From contig NZ_QTUV01000002.1 of the NCBI RefSeq assembly GCF_003435815.1, positions 496,001 through 560,000 of the forward strand: a stretch of DNA of 64,000 bases, read 5' to 3'. Numbering within the stretch: the first letter of the stretch is position 1; each line of letters starts with the position of its first letter. The notes beneath the pieces are model-generated. The model was not told the origin of the DNA. It worked only from the letters and a program-made list of their open reading frames with translations, and did not search any database. The position numbers were made by a program, and so were the translations under genes. Shown here in pieces: positions 1,183 through 18,410 of the stretch. This DNA comes from Dorea sp. AM10-31 (GTDB lineage Bacteria > Bacillota > Clostridia > Lachnospirales > Lachnospiraceae).

Positions 1183-1569
1183 TTATTCTGTAACATTATT
1201 GTGATCTGTATTCTCTTCCTGTTTTTTGGCTTCACTGTGATCTGCTTCCACCGGTTCATCACTCTTCTGTGTATCTGTATTGCCTAACAACTTGTCCCGG
1301 TTCAGTTTACCGTCTTCATCCACATCGCTCTCTAATAATTCCTCGCGGTCCAGCTCTTCTCCGTCATTTTCCACATACTCATGCTTCACTGCCATCACGA
1401 CTGCCTTCGCACACCATACGATTCCAAGTACCGCAAATGCCACACCCAGTACCAGATAAAGCGTTGCATTCTCTGGCCTGTTTGTCATCGTCTTCTTTAT
1501 CAGATCAATTCCCAGATATCCAAGATATCCCCCTACAATAATTCGAAAAAATACGCGACCTTTTGTCAT
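1183..1569 (-). CDS. Small two-helix membrane protein, unknown function
   Basis: I do not recognise a named family. The start at 1569 is chosen because an AGGAGG sits seven bases upstream; a longer frame to 1674 has no such site. The 128-residue product has two hydrophobic helices (about residues 6-25 and 36-62) and then a charged, strongly acidic cytoplasmic tail rich in D and E. It is first in a probable operon with ispF and the acetyltransferase, under the minus-strand promoter at 1675-1704. The leader RNA between promoter and gene contains an imperfect hairpin of GCCGATTTAT paired with ATAAAATCGGC. Confidence 0.7.
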   Translation of the reverse strand: MTKGRVFFRIIVGGYLGYLGIDLIKKTMTNRPENATLYLVLGVAFAVLGIVWCAKAVVMAVKHEYVENDGEELDREELLESDVDEDGKLNRDKLLGNTDTQKSDEPVEADHSEAKKQEENTDHNNVTE

Positions 1570-7130: not shown

Positions 7131-10100
7131 TTATGTTGCTGCAAATCCATTTTTATATTTAAACCCATTTTTCTTTAAGAAATCTTCAGTACTTTTAGCT
7201 GGTACTGTTTGATATTGATTACTAAACACATTATAAGCAACAATTTTTTTACTATTAATTCTTTCAATAGACACATAATGCGAATCTGTCGGATGTTTAT
7301 ATAATATAACCCCGGTTTTTCCTTTTTTTAGTGCTTTATCAAATTTTTTAACTGTACCACATTTTTTTGTTGATATATAGTGCTTTAGTCCTGCATTAAC
7401 AGTACTGTCCCTAATTCCCAAAATTCCCAATGATATCATATAGTAATCAAATTCTGTCACTAATTTCAAAAAGTTTTGAGCCTTATTTTTTGTAATTAAT
7501 GTATTATGTACTGCAATAATACCGCATCCATTTCTTTTAACATTTGTAGATCTAAATTTTACATGTCCCAATTTTGGTTGGTAATTTATATATCCCTTTG
7601 TATTAGCTTTATATTTTTTTCCTTTATCTGCTCGGCAATTCCCCCTATAATTTGTTATAGCAGCAATCGCTTTTCCATCCCCATCTATAGATTTTTTTCT
7701 TATTTCAGAAAATCCCAACCACTTATGTCCACTCGGATCTACATAATTGATCGGATTATTCTTGCAGTATGCATACAGATGTAAGGTGTCTGGATCATTT
7801 ACTTCTCCCCGGTAGGTATCTTCTGTCAGGAATCTTCCATTCTCCGGATCGTAGTATCTTGCATTCAGGTAATAGAGTCCGGTGTTTTCATCGTAGATGC
7901 CGCCTGTGTAGCAGATTTCATTTTTTAAAGCACTGCTTCCGTGGATACTGGTCTCTCCGAAGTCATCATACTCGTAGGAAAGTTCGCCTTTTGTATCCTT
8001 GTTCAGGATGCTGGAAGTGCTGCCCTGGATATCTTTCGTATACAGGAAGTCCTGGTAAGCGGATGCTGTTCCGTCTTTTCCGGTTACTTTCTGTTCTGCA
8101 TAGATCACGTTGTCTTCCAGTCCGGACAGGTTCTGGATCCGTTTCTCTCCGGTGTCTGCTCCGGTTGTATAGGATACCATGCCGTCTTCGTAGAAGTAGT
8201 TTGTGACTTCTCCGGCTTCCTTCTTCTGGATGCGCTGTCCGTCTCCATTGTACAGGTTTTCCTGTGTCAGGCTGACCGTCTCGTCGCCGGATGTACCGCT
8301 CTTCTTCTTCGTTACAGTTGCCGTACTTAAGCGGTTTTCTACATCATAAGTATTCTCTACGCTATCTCCTGTCTCTTTATCGGTCTCTTTGATCTGGTTT
8401 CCGTTGACATCGTACTCATAAGAAATGTCATTCTTTACGGTATCGCCTTTGGTTGTCTTTGCCTTTAGGAGCTGGTTCAGACCATTGTAGGTATACGCCG
8501 TCTCTTCTTCACCTTTGACTTTCTTTGTACGGTTTCCTGCGGAATCGTAGCTGTAAGTCGTGGTGGTCTTTTCCTCATTCTTCTTATGGTCAGTCGCAAC
8601 ACTCTTCACCAGTCTTCTCAGTGCATTGTACGTGTATTCTGTCGTCTTATCGGTATGGTCTTTTTCCTCTTTGGCGGTACTGTTCTTCTCGGTCTTCTTC
8701 ACGATGTTGTTATTCTTATCGTAAGAATAAGTATAGGCTTCCAGAACAGTCGATCCACTCTTATAGGTCATAGAAGATACACGGTCCAATGCATCATACT
8801 CATAGAACCTTGCCACATAGCTTTCGTTCTTATCTCTATAATCAGTAAAGTCAACGATCGTAAACAGTTTTCCTCGTTCGTTATAGCGGTATTTGCGGAT
8901 CAGTTTTTCCTCGTCACTGCCTTTGATCTTTGCTTTGATAGCGATCAGATACTGGTTCTTGTCATACGCATAGTGCAGGCTTTCCACTCTTCCGTCTTCT
9001 GCCAGCGCATAAGTAACTTCCGTGATCTTATCTTCCGTATCATAGCTGTAAGAGATCTTGTGTTTTGCGATCTGTGCATCAGTCGGCTCTGCTTCCTGTG
9101 AGACTTCTGCTGTCCAAGCAGTTCTTCCAAATCCATCATAACCGGTATATGTATAGCGGTATGCTTTCCTCTCACTGCCAGACTTCTTCGCATCCGTCAT
9201 CTTTGTAAGACGGTACTGGTCGTCATACTGATAGTTTGTCTGCAATGTCTGGGTTCCGTCTGCCTGATAGTATTTCGATACGGTCTTCAGATTTCTTGCA
9301 TCATAAGTATCTTCCCGGTAGTCTCCATTTTCATAAGTAACCTTTGTCTGGTTTCCACGGCTGTCATAGCTGTAAGCGGTTGCAATGCTTTCGTCTTCCT
9401 TCTCGCCCTGATCCTGACTGCTCTTTATGAGACCTGCCGCATCCGTGACTTCGATACTCTTTCTTCCGCCTGCATCGGTAACGGTTGTCTTATTCTTCTG
9501 GTTCTCTGTGTCCGTTTCATAGGAGGCTTTGGTTACAACAGCGCCATCTTTGCCTGCGTTCTGTGTCACTTCTGTCACACGGTCAGAAGCATCATAGGAA
9601 TATGCGGTTGCTGTTCCCATAGCATCGGTTTCTTTTGCGACATTTCCTTTTGTGTCATAAGACTGTTTGGTAACCAGACTGTCCTCACTGACCTGATAGG
9701 CTTCCCCGGATACACCCGGATTCACGATGGTTGCAAAGTTTCTGCCCTCTTCATCATAGAGTGCAAGTGTCACTTTTCCTTCTGCTGCGTCCGCACCGGT
9801 TCCATTCTCATATGCAACGACCTGATTGCCGGAGGCATCATAAGTGTAATCCGTATACAGACCGTTTGCTTTCTCTCTTACCACATTACCGGAAGCATCG
9901 GTATACGTCTCGGATGCTGTTGTTCCACTTGGATAGCTTTCCTTCTGGATCGATGCGTTCTTAACCGTTCTGGTTCCTCTGCCATCCTGTACCGTAACAT
10001 CCCCATAAGAATAGGCTGTAGTGTAAGTAAGGGATGTACCCTTTGTAACCGTTCTCTTTACCACACGGTTCAGGGAATCATATACATAATCTGTCTTTAC

Positions 10101-13100
10101 TCCATCGGTTCCAGTCTCGGAAACAACCGTTCCGTTGGCATCATAAGAGGATATCGTCGTCTGGCTTTTTCCATTCAGAGTGCTGACAGACTTGATCTGT
10201 CTTCCCAGTTCATCATAGGTATATTCGGTTACTTCTCCGGTATCCGGATCTGCCTTCTTTGTCACGCGCCCCATGACGTCGTAAGTATTCTTTTCCTGGC
10301 TTTCTACGTCTCCACTGGTGGTTGCAGATTCCGTTGCATTTCCGGAAAGGTCGTACTTGGAGGTCGTTTTGGAGGTCTCAATCCCGGCTACTGTAGTTGT
10401 GGATTCTAAGACATTTCCATCTCCATCGTAAGTATTCTCTGTTATGCTCTTATTGGAAGGATCGCCACTTTCCTCTTCTTTCTTCAGGTTTCCGGTCTTA
10501 TTGTAGGTATAACTTTCCTTGCTGATGACGGTTTCCCCTTTGGTCACAACTTCTGTCTTCGGCTGGTCTTCTGTCCACTCACTGGTCGTGTCATAGGTGT
10601 ACTCTGTTTTCGTTCCGTCTTCTTCCATCTCACTGATGATATTTTCCTGTTCATCATAGTTGGTCTCAGTAGCAGACTCTTTCGTCTTCCACTCGACTTT
10701 TCCGTTGTTCAGTTCTTCGTATCCCATCTGCTTCGTTGTCTTTGTCACAAGATATGGATTCTTTGCATAGCCATAAGTATACGTTGTTACGCTTCCATCG
10801 GCTTCGGTCTCTTTTGTGACTTTTCCGCTCTTTGTGTCATACTCCCGGCTGTTCGTGCGGACTTCTGTCCCGTCAGAAGCTTTCTTTGTTATGGTTGTCT
10901 TTCCACCTGCATATCCCCAGTTTTCTTTCTCTCCGTTCGGGTAAGTTACTGCGGATACTTTTTCACCATTATAAGTGATCGTATATTTCTGCACCTTGCC
11001 ATCCGTCACACTATTCAGGTGATCGCTGTCATAGCCATAAGCATAAGAAACCAGTGCTTTGCCATCCTTACCGCAATGGCTCATTTCCGTTAATCTTCCA
11101 TTACTGTAAGTATAGCAGAGTTTTGTTCCGTCTGGAAGTGTGATCTCTTCCAGAAGTCCGGAATCTTTCTGGTAACTCAGTTCCATTGTCTTTAACGCAT
11201 CCGAAGATACCCGTTTCAGTCTTCCATCTGCAGAATACTCATAGAGAAGGAACGTGCCATCCGGATCAAGCGCCGCTACCAGTTGTCCTTCTTTATTGAA
11301 ACGGTAGAGGACGCCCTTCTTGTCTTTGATCGTATAGGCATGTTTGCGGTTCTTTACGATATTTTCTTCTGCGATTGTTTCTTTATAAGAGTAACTCATC
11401 TCCCCAATCTGGGTACTCTTTACACTGGCTGCGGTATCACCGGAAGGTGTTTTTACACTTCCATCATTCAATGTCAGATCTTTCGTTTCTTTACAGACAT
11501 AAGTATCCCCACTCTTCTCGAAATGATAGATGCTTCCGTCACTGTCCAGATAGTACATCGTGCCATCTTCACCTTTAATCAGTTCTTTATGCAGGGTATC
11601 ACTCCATCCGGTTCCTAACATTCCAGTAAGAAGCGACTGGCTGTTATAAGTTCTCGCCATTTCAAATGTCAACTGACTTGCCGGAAGTGTTGCATCTTCC
11701 TGACTGTAAGTAAGATTTCCGCTCTGGTCTTCCACGGTTCCGTTTCCGGTCGGTGTCTGGAAACTCTGGTATCCCAGATAGTCCTGGCTTCCGGTATGTT
11801 TTTCAAACTCTTCCGGCGCGGTTCCTGTTCCGCTTAAGACAGTATCAATCAGTTCCTGCTCTTCGATCTCACCGGAGGAATCTGCACGGACAGCTTCTAC
11901 TTTATAATACCATTTCTCATCCTTTGCACTTTCCAGATCGATCCAGTAACCTTTGAACACTTTCTTACAGACCATGTTTTCTTCATCCGGTGTAAAGCCC
12001 TTTTCTGTTCCTCTGTAGATCCGGTAATACACCGTGTCATTTAACACTTTATCGGTCTCCCAGGAGATCAGGTTCTTGCCATAGTCTTTCCGCAGGGTGA
12101 GGGTTCCGTCTTTCGGAAGATAACCGTCAAATCCGGCTGTATTATCTTTATAATAATAGTCCAGCACTTCTTCTTTGACATTGCCTGCTTTGTCCACTGC
12201 ACGGACAGCGATCTTATGCTGTCCATTTCCGGTGATCGTGCCTGCCGGAAGTTCCACACTTCCACTGGTTCCGGTTCCCAGCTTCTTCCATGCGCCATCG
12301 TCGATCTTGTATTCCATCTGTTTGAGGTTTGCATCAGATACACCTGACCACTGGATCGTCGGATTCTGCACATCGGTCGGTTCTTCTTTTGTTGTCGCCG
12401 GTGTCAGTACTATTTTATTCATTGTCGGCGCCGTTCCATCGATCACAAATCTTGCACCTGCTCCAGGTCCTGCAAGGTTTCCTTTGTCTACACCACGGAT
12501 ACCGATCTTATAGCTGCCTTCTTTCCAGCCGGTACTCGCTGCGATCGTTGCCGAGCCGCTTCCGCTGGTTCCCAGTTTGGTACTGGAAGAATACGGAACT
12601 AATTCACTGACATCTTCCAGAGTTGTTGGATTCAATGTTACAATCTTGTACTGGACATAGGATAATCCTTTGGACGTGATCCCTGCCCAGTTTGCTTTGA
12701 TCGCTGTTCCCGGTTTTACATAAGACGGTGTTACGGATACGGAAGTTGCCTTGGTCGGTTTATCATAATAAGTAACAACCATTTTCGGGCGGAGACTGGT
12801 CGTGCTGTTTCTGGAACCTACAAACTCCGCATACTTTCCGGTCTCATCCGCGCCTTTTAACATCACGCCGTAATTGACAATCGAATCATTGGCAAGCCCT
12901 CTGGCAAAAGAAGTCAAATCTAACGTTCTGGCGGTCTTTGCTTTTCCAGTTGTCTTCACCGTGCTGTATAAAGTATTGTATCCCGGACGTTTGTTCCAGG
13001 TCACCTTGGAACGCTCCCATGCTTCTTTTACCCGGTATGCCTGTACCGTCTGCCCTTTCGTACTGTTCCCGGTCTCATACATTGTCAAGATGGCACTGTC

Positions 13101-14249
13101 TACATAGTTGCCTTTGATCTTGGATTTCATATCTTTGAAAGCAAGGTAGGTCCGGTAGATTCCTTTGGATGCTTTTCCTGCATTCATCACCGTTACACCA
13201 CTGGTGTAAAAGTTGTAATCTTTATAGGTAGAACCGCTTAAGATATACACGTCCCCAAGATCCGTGTTGCCTGTCCACTTGATCGTCGGATCGATCACAA
13301 CCGGATACTGACGGTCTTTGTCTTTCAGATAAGACCAGTCTGCGGTCACTGTTACACAATAGGTGTCTTCCCCTGCTTCCTCTACTTTGGTTGTCAGTTC
13401 TTCGCTGTATGCCTTCCCAATGGCATCGTTCATATTCGGAGCACCGACCGAACCAACAATCTCGTCGCTTTCTTTATCGTAGAGAGTCAGCCCTTCATCC
13501 ACCGGATTTTTTCTAAGCTTCAAGCCTTTTAATTTCAATGTATAAGAAAACGTATTTTCTTTCGGACACTTGGCAAGCCGAATCTCTTCCTTGATCCCGG
13601 ACTCACCGGAAGTATATGCATAAGTGACCGGTTCCGAGGTGTCATAAGCTGCTGTCAGCGGAACTTCTTCCGTCTCTTCATATCCGTTCGTGAAGTCCTC
13701 CTTCTCTACTTCAACAGCTTTGCTTTTCATGTCCGGACTGAGCGCAACACTGTAGCCGTCCTTTTCCATCAAAAGTGGCGTCGTATCCGACAGCTTCTCC
13801 GGAAAGTACTGTTTGGCATCCCCTTCTTCGTTCTCGTATGCATAGCCCTTCAGACTTTCCTTGTTCTCACTCTTCGCACTGTCCACTTTTACCAGTGACG
13901 GGTCATAATCAATGAGCTTCCCCGACTCATCTTTATACCGCACCGGTTCCTGATAGAATACGGATACTTTCTTACCATTCCCGATCTGGAACGTGGTGGA
14001 AGTCTCGGTATTCTCTTTCTTCACAGCATCCTCTTCTGTCACACCTTTTAATTCTTTTGGGCGTTCTACACTGTCATCCGCACCGGAAGCTGCTTCGGTC
14101 TGTGACGGATTCTCCGCTGTCTGTGCCGGTTCAGCAGCCAGTGATTCCAGTGATACGGAGGTGACGGATAGTGCCGCTATTAATGTAGTTGCTGTGATTC
14201 GTTTCCAATTTGAATAATATTTTTCTTTTCGCTTTTTGCTTTTTTTCAT
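7131..14249 (-). CDS. Secreted RHS/YD-repeat polymorphic toxin with cysteine-protease-like tip
   Basis: This 2372-residue protein starts with a basic signal peptide (residues 1-38, ending SLAAEP). It continues with a DNRLRE-like wall-protein domain (about 330-495), fibronectin-like beta regions (500-820), a DUF6531-like entry segment (GTGWSDTLHKEL, near 880) and a long YD-repeat shell. The RHS core (LYYLNARYYDPENGRF, then NPINYVDPSGHKW) lies at about 2120-2177. After the core comes a 195-residue tip that differs from the orphan copy. In it, KRNGCGIIAVHNTL (Cys 2242), DSHYVSIERI (His 2324) and AYNVFSN (Asn 2340) have the order and context of a papain or C39-like fold, so a protease, deamidase or transferase toxin is inferred. 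The secreted protein gene lies upstream and the candidate immunity gene 15 bases downstream. Confidence 0.9.
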   Translation of the reverse strand: MKKSKKRKEKYYSNWKRITATTLIAALSVTSVSLESLAAEPAQTAENPSQTEAASGADDSVERPKELKGVTEEDAVKKENTETSTTFQIGNGKKVSVFYQEPVRYKDESGKLIDYDPSLVKVDSAKSENKESLKGYAYENEEGDAKQYFPEKLSDTTPLLMEKDGYSVALSPDMKSKAVEVEKEDFTNGYEETEEVPLTAAYDTSEPVTYAYTSGESGIKEEIRLAKCPKENTFSYTLKLKGLKLRKNPVDEGLTLYDKESDEIVGSVGAPNMNDAIGKAYSEELTTKVEEAGEDTYCVTVTADWSYLKDKDRQYPVVIDPTIKWTGNTDLGDVYILSGSTYKDYNFYTSGVTVMNAGKASKGIYRTYLAFKDMKSKIKGNYVDSAILTMYETGNSTKGQTVQAYRVKEAWERSKVTWNKRPGYNTLYSTVKTTGKAKTARTLDLTSFARGLANDSIVNYGVMLKGADETGKYAEFVGSRNSTTSLRPKMVVTYYDKPTKATSVSVTPSYVKPGTAIKANWAGITSKGLSYVQYKIVTLNPTTLEDVSELVPYSSSTKLGTSGSGSATIAASTGWKEGSYKIGIRGVDKGNLAGPGAGARFVIDGTAPTMNKIVLTPATTKEEPTDVQNPTIQWSGVSDANLKQMEYKIDDGAWKKLGTGTSGSVELPAGTITGNGQHKIAVRAVDKAGNVKEEVLDYYYKDNTAGFDGYLPKDGTLTLRKDYGKNLISWETDKVLNDTVYYRIYRGTEKGFTPDEENMVCKKVFKGYWIDLESAKDEKWYYKVEAVRADSSGEIEEQELIDTVLSGTGTAPEEFEKHTGSQDYLGYQSFQTPTGNGTVEDQSGNLTYSQEDATLPASQLTFEMARTYNSQSLLTGMLGTGWSDTLHKELIKGEDGTMYYLDSDGSIYHFEKSGDTYVCKETKDLTLNDGSVKTPSGDTAASVKSTQIGEMSYSYKETIAEENIVKNRKHAYTIKDKKGVLYRFNKEGQLVAALDPDGTFLLYEYSADGRLKRVSSDALKTMELSYQKDSGLLEEITLPDGTKLCYTYSNGRLTEMSHCGKDGKALVSYAYGYDSDHLNSVTDGKVQKYTITYNGEKVSAVTYPNGEKENWGYAGGKTTITKKASDGTEVRTNSREYDTKSGKVTKETEADGSVTTYTYGYAKNPYLVTKTTKQMGYEELNNGKVEWKTKESATETNYDEQENIISEMEEDGTKTEYTYDTTSEWTEDQPKTEVVTKGETVISKESYTYNKTGNLKKEEESGDPSNKSITENTYDGDGNVLESTTTVAGIETSKTTSKYDLSGNATESATTSGDVESQEKNTYDVMGRVTKKADPDTGEVTEYTYDELGRQIKSVSTLNGKSQTTISSYDANGTVVSETGTDGVKTDYVYDSLNRVVKRTVTKGTSLTYTTAYSYGDVTVQDGRGTRTVKNASIQKESYPSGTTASETYTDASGNVVREKANGLYTDYTYDASGNQVVAYENGTGADAAEGKVTLALYDEEGRNFATIVNPGVSGEAYQVSEDSLVTKQSYDTKGNVAKETDAMGTATAYSYDASDRVTEVTQNAGKDGAVVTKASYETDTENQKNKTTVTDAGGRKSIEVTDAAGLIKSSQDQGEKEDESIATAYSYDSRGNQTKVTYENGDYREDTYDARNLKTVSKYYQADGTQTLQTNYQYDDQYRLTKMTDAKKSGSERKAYRYTYTGYDGFGRTAWTAEVSQEAEPTDAQIAKHKISYSYDTEDKITEVTYALAEDGRVESLHYAYDKNQYLIAIKAKIKGSDEEKLIRKYRYNERGKLFTIVDFTDYRDKNESYVARFYEYDALDRVSSMTYKSGSTVLEAYTYSYDKNNNIVKKTEKNSTAKEEKDHTDKTTEYTYNALRRLVKSVATDHKKNEEKTTTTYSYDSAGNRTKKVKGEEETAYTYNGLNQLLKAKTTKGDTVKNDISYEYDVNGNQIKETDKETGDSVENTYDVENRLSTATVTKKKSGTSGDETVSLTQENLYNGDGQRIQKKEAGEVTNYFYEDGMVSYTTGADTGEKRIQNLSGLEDNVIYAEQKVTGKDGTASAYQDFLYTKDIQGSTSSILNKDTKGELSYEYDDFGETSIHGSSALKNEICYTGGIYDENTGLYYLNARYYDPENGRFLTEDTYRGEVNDPDTLHLYAYCKNNPINYVDPSGHKWLGFSEIRKKSIDGDGKAIAAITNYRGNCRADKGKKYKANTKGYINYQPKLGHVKFRSTNVKRNGCGIIAVHNTLITKNKAQNFLKLVTEFDYYMISLGILGIRDSTVNAGLKHYISTKKCGTVKKFDKALKKGKTGVILYKHPTDSHYVSIERINSKKIVAYNVFSNQYQTVPAKSTEDFLKKNGFKYKNGFAAT
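8047..8618 (-). repeat. RHS segmental repeat, parent copy
   Basis: Internal part of the intact RHS gene duplicated at 5061-5622. It ends shortly before the RHS core. Confidence 0.88.
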
Positions 14250-16134: not shown

Positions 16135-16749
16135 CTATCTTACAATTTCAATTCTTTTTCTTATATCTTCTTCTAACTTCAACTTACCAATCTCTTGCCC
16201 TTTTGAAAGGTATGTACATTTATTATAACATTTCTCTTTATAGCTTTTTGAAAAAATTGCAAGAACTTTATTTGTTGGGTTAGACAATCGTTTTACATCT
16301 TCATTGTATAATGTTACTGGATAATCCACACGATTTCCATTACGAAAACCAACACTTAATATCGCTTTTGTATCACCAACAAAATAATCTGCCCGAATAT
16401 ATACCCCACTATTAATAAATTCTCCAACTAGACAATGATGAGACATAAGCTTAGAAAGACATGGTAATACCATTAATTTCTGTTGCACCTTCCCTTTATT
16501 ATCAATTTCAAAATCTCTTTCTGCTAATTTAGACTCCAAACATGCCGCATAAAATTGTTGTGCAGATAACTTAGTCTTTACTCCTGTTAAATGTAAAAAG
16601 TTCATATCACGAAAACCGATTTCTACTGTTTTAGTAAGTGATTTTTTCTGATAAACAATCAAAAAGTGCTTATTATTCAATTTTTCTTCATATTCTTTTG
16701 CTGCATGTACAATAATTTTTATTGCTGATTTTTTATCATATTTTTTCAT
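16135..16749 (-). CDS. PBECR4-like protein, putative RNase toxin of an RNA-antitoxin system
   Basis: The 204-residue cytosolic protein matches my memory of the PBECR4 family, one of the phage-associated barnase-EndoU-colicin-RelE (BECR) nuclease folds. The segments FRDMNFLHLTGVKTK, AQQFYAACLESKL, YFVGDTKAILSVGF and NKVLAIFSKSYKEKC follow that pattern in order. BECR enzymes cut RNA, often tRNA. It has no signal peptide. ATG at 16749 follows a GGGGAA site. Directly upstream are an intrinsic terminator and a 200-base structured repeat RNA with its own promoter, as in type III toxin-antitoxin loci. The toxin role is inferred; an alternative is a stand-alone phage-derived nuclease with a regulatory leader. 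Confidence 0.68.
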   Translation of the reverse strand: MKKYDKKSAIKIIVHAAKEYEEKLNNKHFLIVYQKKSLTKTVEIGFRDMNFLHLTGVKTKLSAQQFYAACLESKLAERDFEIDNKGKVQQKLMVLPCLSKLMSHHCLVGEFINSGVYIRADYFVGDTKAILSVGFRNGNRVDYPVTLYNEDVKRLSNPTNKVLAIFSKSYKEKCYNKCTYLSKGQEIGKLKLEEDIRKRIEIVR

Positions 16750-16767
16750 TTGTATTCCCCACTATAC

Positions 16768-16797
16768 AAAAAAGGTTGCCCTCTCGGACAACCTTTT
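16768..16797 (-). terminator. Intrinsic terminator between repeat RNA and PBECR4-like gene
   Basis: AAAAGGTTGTCC pairs with GGGCAACCTTTT around a GAGA (GNRA) tetraloop, followed by six T. It stands 18 bases before the start codon, where type III loci place a leaky terminator. Confidence 0.9.
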
Positions 16798-16966
16798 CTA
16801 ATTCTGATATTGCTGATTTTACTGTTGTCTGCCAACGTTCCGCCCCACTATGTGCGGTTTAACTGTAGAGTTTTTCTGTTGCTCTCCAACCTGCCAGCCA
16901 ACGAACTGGCTAAAATGTCAGATTTTTAAGGTGTCAGCTCACCCAGACAGACGCATCTGTCTTTAC
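16768..16966 (-). ncRNA. Structured repeat RNA, candidate RNA antitoxin
   Basis: Three consecutive units (16912-16962, 16859-16911 and about 16804-16858, each 51-55 bases) share one plan. Each opens with hairpin A: AGACAGA-TGCG-TCTGTCT, AGCCAG-TTCG-TTGGCT, or CCGCAC-ATA-GTGGGGCGG. Hairpin B follows (GGTG..CACC, GTTGGAGAGCAAC or GTTGGCAGACAAC), then an A-rich linker ending in TC. The first two A loops are UNCG tetraloops. Units 2 and 3 also share sequence (GTTGG..AG.CAACAG.AAAA). No reading frame of note crosses it. Bounded by a strong promoter and a terminator, it should be a discrete RNA of about 200 nt. Confidence 0.65.
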
Positions 16967-16972
16967 AATATT

Positions 16973-17001
16973 ATTATACGAATCAATAATTTTAATGTCA
17001 A
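16973..17001 (-). promoter_or_regulatory. Sigma-A promoter of the repeat RNA
   Basis: Perfect TTGACA and TATAAT with a 17-base spacer on the minus strand, 30 bases beyond the stop of gdhA. Consensus strength suits a highly expressed RNA. Confidence 0.9.

Positions 17002-17030: not shown

Positions 17031-18410
<1,380 letters not shown>

Follow-up and report, generated by a model that had tools for sequence, protein, structure and literature searches.

A covarying triple-pseudoknot RNA upstream of PBECR4 genes: a putative type III-like toxin-antitoxin module

Type III toxin-antitoxin systems are arranged in the order promoter, RNA, terminator and gene, which yields much RNA and little toxin (PMC5086642, in its available sections). 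In the AbiF/RCd22 pair of C. difficile, an upstream structured RNA reportedly binds the toxic protein directly and so neutralises it (available text of PMC12373285), a precedent for an upstream structured RNA acting as the direct antitoxin of a protein. The PBECR families of polyvalent proteins are predicted RNases with solo versions in phages; the accessible part of the paper describing them reports no RNA partner, and the terms ncRNA and PBECR4 are absent from it (PMC5512222). The literature searched, with subscription papers and most preprints outside its scope, contains no paper naming PBECR4, and only one for the term “drum RNA,” the available portion of which concerns structure prediction (PMC7657543).

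The locus described here lies in a window, i.e., the whole 64,000-nucleotide stretch of Dorea DNA that was analysed. The first-pass annotation had proposed a promoter, a non-coding stretch, a terminator and a gene for 204 residues, and this order is present on the minus strand (Table 1). It is the type III order, which is also seen by eye in 12 of 12 homologues. We consider it likely that such loci are type III-like modules in which a new toxin family, PBECR4, is combined with antitoxin RNAs of several classes; the toxicity and RNase activity of PBECR4, RNA binding, inhibition, transcription and phage defence are predicted roles. The RNA of the window belongs to what is here called class A. 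An Rfam scan of the window returns three matches, all tRNAs, and none in the RNA stretch, and Rfam holds no family corresponding to class A. The end of a glutamate dehydrogenase-like gene adjoins the module both in the window (17031-18398) and in the homologous locus L010. Elsewhere in the window (7131-14249, minus strand) a 2372-aa protein is encoded that by eye resembles an RHS/YD-repeat protein carrying a distinct C-terminal domain and is possibly a polymorphic toxin.

Table 1. Components of the RNA-PBECR4 module, in window coordinates.
Feature	Position	Strand	Basis and remarks
Promoter TTGACA-17 nt-TATAAT (consensus)	16973..17001	-	TTGACA 17001-16996, TATAAT 16978-16973; sequence
Structured RNA including terminator, ~198 nt	16768..16966	-	5' end estimated from promoter; core 16807-16945 in alignment A1
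5' hairpin A1	16945..16962	-	Sequence; by eye absent from Selenomonas-order relatives
Hairpin B1 and loop 1	16930..16943	-	Loop bases 16938-16934 (GCTGA) pair with tail 3; helices 1, 2
Tail 1 (TCTG)	16919..16922	-	Partner loop 3; helix 3, 28/28
Hairpin A2	16893..16910	-	Helix 4
Hairpin B2 and loop 2	16878..16890	-	Loop bases 16885-16882 pair with tail 2; helices 5, 6
Tail 2 (CTCT)	16867..16870	-	Partner loop 2; helix 6, 25/28
Hairpin A3	16840..16857	-	Helix 7
Hairpin B3 and loop 3	16824..16836	-	Loop bases 16831-16828 pair with tail 1; helices 8, 3
Tail 3 (TCAGC)	16812..16816	-	Partner loop 1, closes the RNA; helix 2, 28/28 over four pairs
Intrinsic terminator, GAGA loop, T6	16768..16797	-	Sequence
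Shine-Dalgarno-like GGGG	16760-16757	-	Sequence
PBECR4 protein gene, 204 aa, presumed RNase toxin	16135..16749	-	ATG 16749, stop codon 16137-16135; PF18813 E 3.9e-48

The protein matches PF18813 with 164.8 bits, well above the cut-off of 27 (residues 12-183, profile positions 1-187 of 188), which bears out the proposed likeness to PBECR4. At the level of sequence, its unlikeness to the known type III toxins is also upheld: a Pfam scan to E 10 names PBECR4 only, with no sequence relationship to ToxN, and a PDB sequence search to E 10 is empty. NCBIfam and PADLOC give no credible match, and the PHROGs match is to a family with no assigned function (18856, E 1.5e-06). His53 and Gly56 are invariant in an alignment of 62 sequences. 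In the structure model (pLDDT 92.9, pTM 0.88) His53 falls in the second helix (48-55), the BECR-fold criterion being a histidine in the N-terminal helix together with a Ser/Thr in strand 4. A PDB structure search with this model finds no clear resemblance to solved structures, and the RNase call therefore rests on the Pfam family and on the 2017 prediction, in the available text of PMC5512222, under which PBECR4 is a predicted BECR-fold RNase.

The fold of the class A RNA was derived from alignment A1, for which 32 upstream regions were inspected. After L044 (truncated at its contig end) and L046 (which lacks hairpin B1) had been set aside, segments were taken from the other 30, and removal of two identical ones (L009, L032) left 28 distinct RNAs. 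Each unit comprises hairpin A, hairpin B, an A-rich linker and a short tail; hairpin A of unit 1 is present only in part of the family, and in units 2 and 3 most hairpin B stems are GTTG/CAAC. The tail that closes each A-rich linker base-pairs with one of the hairpin loops, and two of these three pairings join different units; the first-pass annotation has none of them. All nine loop-tail combinations were tested for four base pairs with G-U allowed, and pairing is complete in 28/28 RNAs for loop 1-tail 3 (28/29 if L046 is counted as well), in 25/28 for loop 2-tail 2 and in 28/28 for loop 3-tail 1, against 0, 0, 8, 0, 3 and 0 of 28 for the six wrong combinations. These true pairs occur in 5, 9 and 6 sequence versions, respectively. 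In the 34 pairs that make up the 8 helices, 98.4% of the cells are paired (83.9 +- 0.7 when shuffled, at most 51.1% when slid), 27 of the 34 pairs have changed on both sides (15.2 +- 2.0 when shuffled), and the covariation score is 0.490 (0.206 when shuffled, at most 0.124 when slid by 1-3 columns). The number of further pair types shows no excess in A1 (44 vs. 42.8 shuffled).

The covariance model built for this family, R1, describes hairpins only, the loop-tail pairs being left out. With R1, 29 RNAs not in A1 were aligned from 28 loci of our own choice, the two-unit or cut forms (L133-L137, L153), L168 and L046 being excluded and some of the 29 being near relatives of A1 rows. By Watson-Crick pairs only, loop 1 pairs with tail 3 in 26/29, loop 2 with tail 2 in 24/29 and loop 3 with tail 1 in 26/29 (27/29 with G-U allowed), the wrong combinations reaching 0 to 4, or 0 to 12 with G-U. 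Versions new to the family appear here, e.g., TTGG in loop 1 matched by CCAA in tail 3, and CAAG in loop 3 matched by CTTG in tail 1. The loop 2-tail 2 helix fails the four-base-pair test in 3/28 RNAs of A1 and 5/29 of the others. The failures of loop 1-tail 3 outside A1 are L129, L130 and L171, none of which has a PBECR4 match directly downstream, a PBECR4 remnant being present in L130.

Because loop-tail pairing holds both in and outside A1, including the new versions, the fold with pairing order a-b-c-c'-b'-a' is conserved: unit 2 is self-closed, and around it units 1 and 3 are tied to each other. Hairpin B, the loop-tail helix and the A-rich linker together supply the components of an H-type pseudoknot whose second loop is A-rich. 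As first claimed, the non-coding stretch holds three similarly planned units, but they are not independent repeats of the ToxI kind, since they are knotted together across units. The observation that they keep shape more than sequence was correct, and loop-tail pairing is its likely reason. Four solitary RNAs contain units 1 and 3 only (L134, L136, L137, L153), which agrees with unit 2 closing on itself; no PBECR4-like sequence was found alongside them, and L136 and L137 have, by eye, lost one loop 1-tail 3 pair. It is very improbable, in our estimate, that the RNA serves chiefly as a decoy, or as a substrate for cleavage by PBECR4, without a stable inhibitory complex: PBECR proteins are indeed predicted RNases (PMC5512222, available text), but the long-range pairing retained in every unit speaks for an RNA that is bound in folded form.

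Class A RNAs are widely spread. A scan of genome contigs gives homologues at 12 loci in Lachnospiraceae, Butyrivibrio, Anaerotignum, Selenomonas and others, with proteins 34-75% identical; by eye the same RNA precedes the gene in 12/12, the genes of L010 and L011 being broken. A PF18813 search covered two genome sets, one from the order of a Butyrivibrio (392 genomes, 55 of them matching) and one from that of Selenomonas felix (189 genomes, 38 matching). The covariance search suggested by the first-pass annotation was carried out with R1 and yields matches upstream of PBECR4 homologues. Class A RNAs are found in both of these orders, in Erysipelothrix phage phi1605 (84.1 bits, two places), in Streptococcus phage Javan100 (76.9 bits), in the Enterococcus phage record Efs 1-1-1 (89.7 bits) and on an E. 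faecium resistance plasmid (74.6 bits). A PBECR4 gene is adjacent at 30 of the 54 R1 places, a linkage that is partly by construction because R1 was trained on PBECR4-linked RNAs (20/30 are training rows or identical to them, 10/30 are not). A conserved RNA upstream of other PBECR4 genes, on which the original proposal had been made to depend, was thus looked for and found, and the pairing of structured RNA and PBECR4 is strongly supported by its recurrence across two orders, phages and a plasmid. The two RNAs of phi1605 (MF172979.1, 12813-12949 and 84517-84653) score equally, and the PBECR4-like frame after the first is stop-interrupted. Beside the class A RNA of an Enterococcus phage record there are three matches to the RatA antitoxin RNA (RF01776; L233:1101-1188, 2178-2263, 2618-2703).

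Another RNA, drum (RF02958), stands above its cut-off upstream of PBECR4 in ten of 19 scanned loci. Its source is said to be Weinberg 2017. The window does not reach the gathering threshold of drum, and 14 class A loci give no match to it at E 1. A drum search of the 392 + 189 (=581) genomes finds 54 places, 47 of them over the cut-off, and PBECR4 lies at most 400 nt downstream on the same strand in 41/54 (37/47 over the cut-off), a linkage unaffected by the training bias of R1. Drum also precedes PBECR4 on plasmids of Enterococcus casseliflavus, E. faecalis and Streptococcus suis. Alongside two Enterococcus plasmid drum-PBECR4 pairs there are an AbiH family gene (L229) and genes for TIR, DUF6414 and an AAA ATPase (L228), respectively.

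The upstream RNAs were sorted at 92 PBECR4 places, counted when the match covers at least 150 profile positions with no stop, although this stop-free set includes at least one frameshifted gene (G011). Class A accounts for 26, drum for 35 and neither for 31, of which 27 were read, 3 lie at contig ends and 1 was not fetched. All 27 carry, by eye, a promoter-RNA-hairpin element; they fall, also by eye, into classes C (6), D (7) and E (4), a drum-like group (5), a class A variant (1, L168) and 4 outside these classes, the names C, D and E being our own and only D having been aligned (9 sequences). An RNA-like element is therefore found upstream of 88/88 readable stop-free PBECR4 places (of 92), 27 of the 88 being judged by eye. 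On a protein tree of 65 rows chosen by us, in which near-copies inflate clustering, RNA class changes 6 times, one above the minimum, against a mean of 32.7 when shuffled (0/200 with as few). A single branch separates each of classes C, D and E from the rest of the tree, while A needs 3 changes and drum 4. This shows that RNA class is co-inherited with the PBECR4 protein clade. Upstream of a shorter or partial PBECR4 match (L173, G122:C80), two tandem H-type pseudoknots are seen by eye from loop-tail complementarity, a layout that is the closest to classical type III antitoxins. In L078, where an RNA-like element outside the named classes stands upstream of the PBECR4 gene, a DUF3800-VIII RNA (RF03075, 44.1 bits, cut-off 40.2; 1361-1423, plus strand) lies just beyond the 3' end of this opposite-strand gene.

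Upstream regions were compared for 85 PBECR4 places (84 of the 92, plus L187 with 149 positions) and 79 controls, which are open frames of at least 150 aa and not annotated genes. For the best 46-nt fold within 140 nt, the median is -21.3 kcal/mol before PBECR4 and -10.4 kcal/mol before controls, and -12 kcal/mol is reached in 83/85 and 28/79, respectively. The two weak regions are L023, whose match starts after a frameshift, and L165, with a hairpin further upstream by eye. Eight of the 92 are not in this set: four were unreadable or unfetched, and four (L032, L089, L095, L107) were tested separately and pass both the hairpin and the promoter test, which brings the hairpin result to 86/88. 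A promoter-like site lies 140-420 nt upstream in 76/84 PBECR4 regions and 28/76 controls. A T-run terminator by a strict rule occurs in only 37/85 PBECR4 regions, against 5/79 controls; in one class A group, to which L030-L034 belong, the hairpin is strong but no T-run follows it.

RNAs also persist where the gene is broken or missing. No PBECR4 match is adjacent to 24/54 class A places and 13/54 drum places. Among the 24, L135 and L139 lie at contig ends, G281:C221:3592 and one overlapping G349:C62 match are second matches beside another, and L148 and L171 have PBECR4 sequence upstream of the RNA rather than downstream; L111, L116 and L130 retain a remnant and most others show none. Seven RNAs pass all three loop-tail tests with no PBECR4-like sequence found (L117, L124, L138, L143, L144, L146, L147). 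Of the 13 drum places, six keep downstream remnants (L094, L096, L196, L200, L206, L209; tblastn E <0.01), and tblastn finds none at the remaining seven. The converse, a stop-free PBECR4 gene with a readable upstream region and no RNA-like element, does not occur among the 88, the nearest case being G156:C92 (L046), in which hairpin B1 is not recognisable. A harmless RNA and a harmful protein would be expected to leave just such an asymmetry, which does not amount to proof, 27 of the 88 having been judged by eye. In two genomes, a solitary class A RNA (L143, L149) lies directly before a gene whose product by eye resembles a type I restriction specificity subunit.

Two further explanations were weighed. 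The RNA could act in cis as a leader or attenuator, setting PBECR4 expression via PBECR4 or another signal, rather than as a separate antitoxin; it does stand upstream of the gene, its 3' part is a terminator or strong hairpin, and covariation would be expected of a structured leader too. We nevertheless consider this unlikely, given the seven fully paired RNAs without PBECR4-like sequence, for which recent gene loss could still account, and the different RNA classes at the same site in different protein clades, which would be unusual for one regulatory leader. Somewhat less probable again is that RNA and PBECR4 make up a permanent ribonucleoprotein effector of defence, the RNA having a sensing or guiding role and not an inhibitory one. 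Plasmid and phage copies would fit such an effector, as would the AbiH gene in L229 and the TIR and AAA ATPase genes by L228; no long variable guide-like stretch stands out in A1, however, and RNAs kept beside broken protein genes fit an antitoxin better.

In the favoured reading as a type III-like module, the strong promoter would produce much RNA, and the terminator would pass little transcription into the PBECR4 gene. The RNA would fold into three hairpin-loop pseudoknots, tying a single chain into a closed scaffold, and would bind and block PBECR4, the predicted RNase. As two of the three pseudoknots form across units, one closed scaffold is expected rather than cut repeats. Loss of the RNA, e.g., when a phage stops host transcription, may free the toxin, and other PBECR4 clades may work likewise with other RNAs, including drum. 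On balance we lean towards a broader reading, in which PBECR4 would be the toxin of a large, unrecognised type III-like group with at least four antitoxin RNA classes, roughly one per clade and drum among them. The class of the window would then represent a new kind of antitoxin, its first and last units cross-tied round a self-closed middle one, in a scaffold that possibly holds three toxins and is not assembled from cut repeats. If true, one toxin family and several RNA classes would be added to the small group of RNA-controlled toxins, and the orphan drum RNA would gain a directly testable protein partner. The three pseudoknots in nested order are an RNA fold supported helix by helix by covariation, and the copies on Enterococcus plasmids and in phages make mobile-element stability and phage defence direct questions.

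Among described systems, AvcID too has an RNA antitoxin and a different kind of toxin, in its case a deaminase, and an anti-phage role is reported for it (PMC10511110, in the accessible text). AbiF/RCd22 shares the structured RNA upstream of a protein gene, whereas its protein belongs to the Abi_2 family and its RNA has two short abiF motifs, in place of PBECR4 and a triple pseudoknot. Drum likewise stands upstream of PBECR4 genes, but of other clades, and is an RNA family separate from class A. ToxIN, AbiQ, CptIN and TenpIN have in common with the module one promoter, a repeat RNA, a Rho-independent terminator and an RNase gene (here predicted), a pseudoknotted RNA, evident here from the covariation of loop-tail pairs, and an antitoxin type conserved with the toxin clade (PMC5086642, PMC4627078, in their available sections). 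Judged from sequence, the module appears to work like a type III system, yet its toxin lies outside the ToxN family, PBECR4 being the sole family named by Pfam. Each repeat of ToxI and CptI folds its own pseudoknot, and type III repeats are tandem, near-identical and cut into monomers; by contrast, class A has three units of one plan but different sequences, tied to one another by pairing across units.
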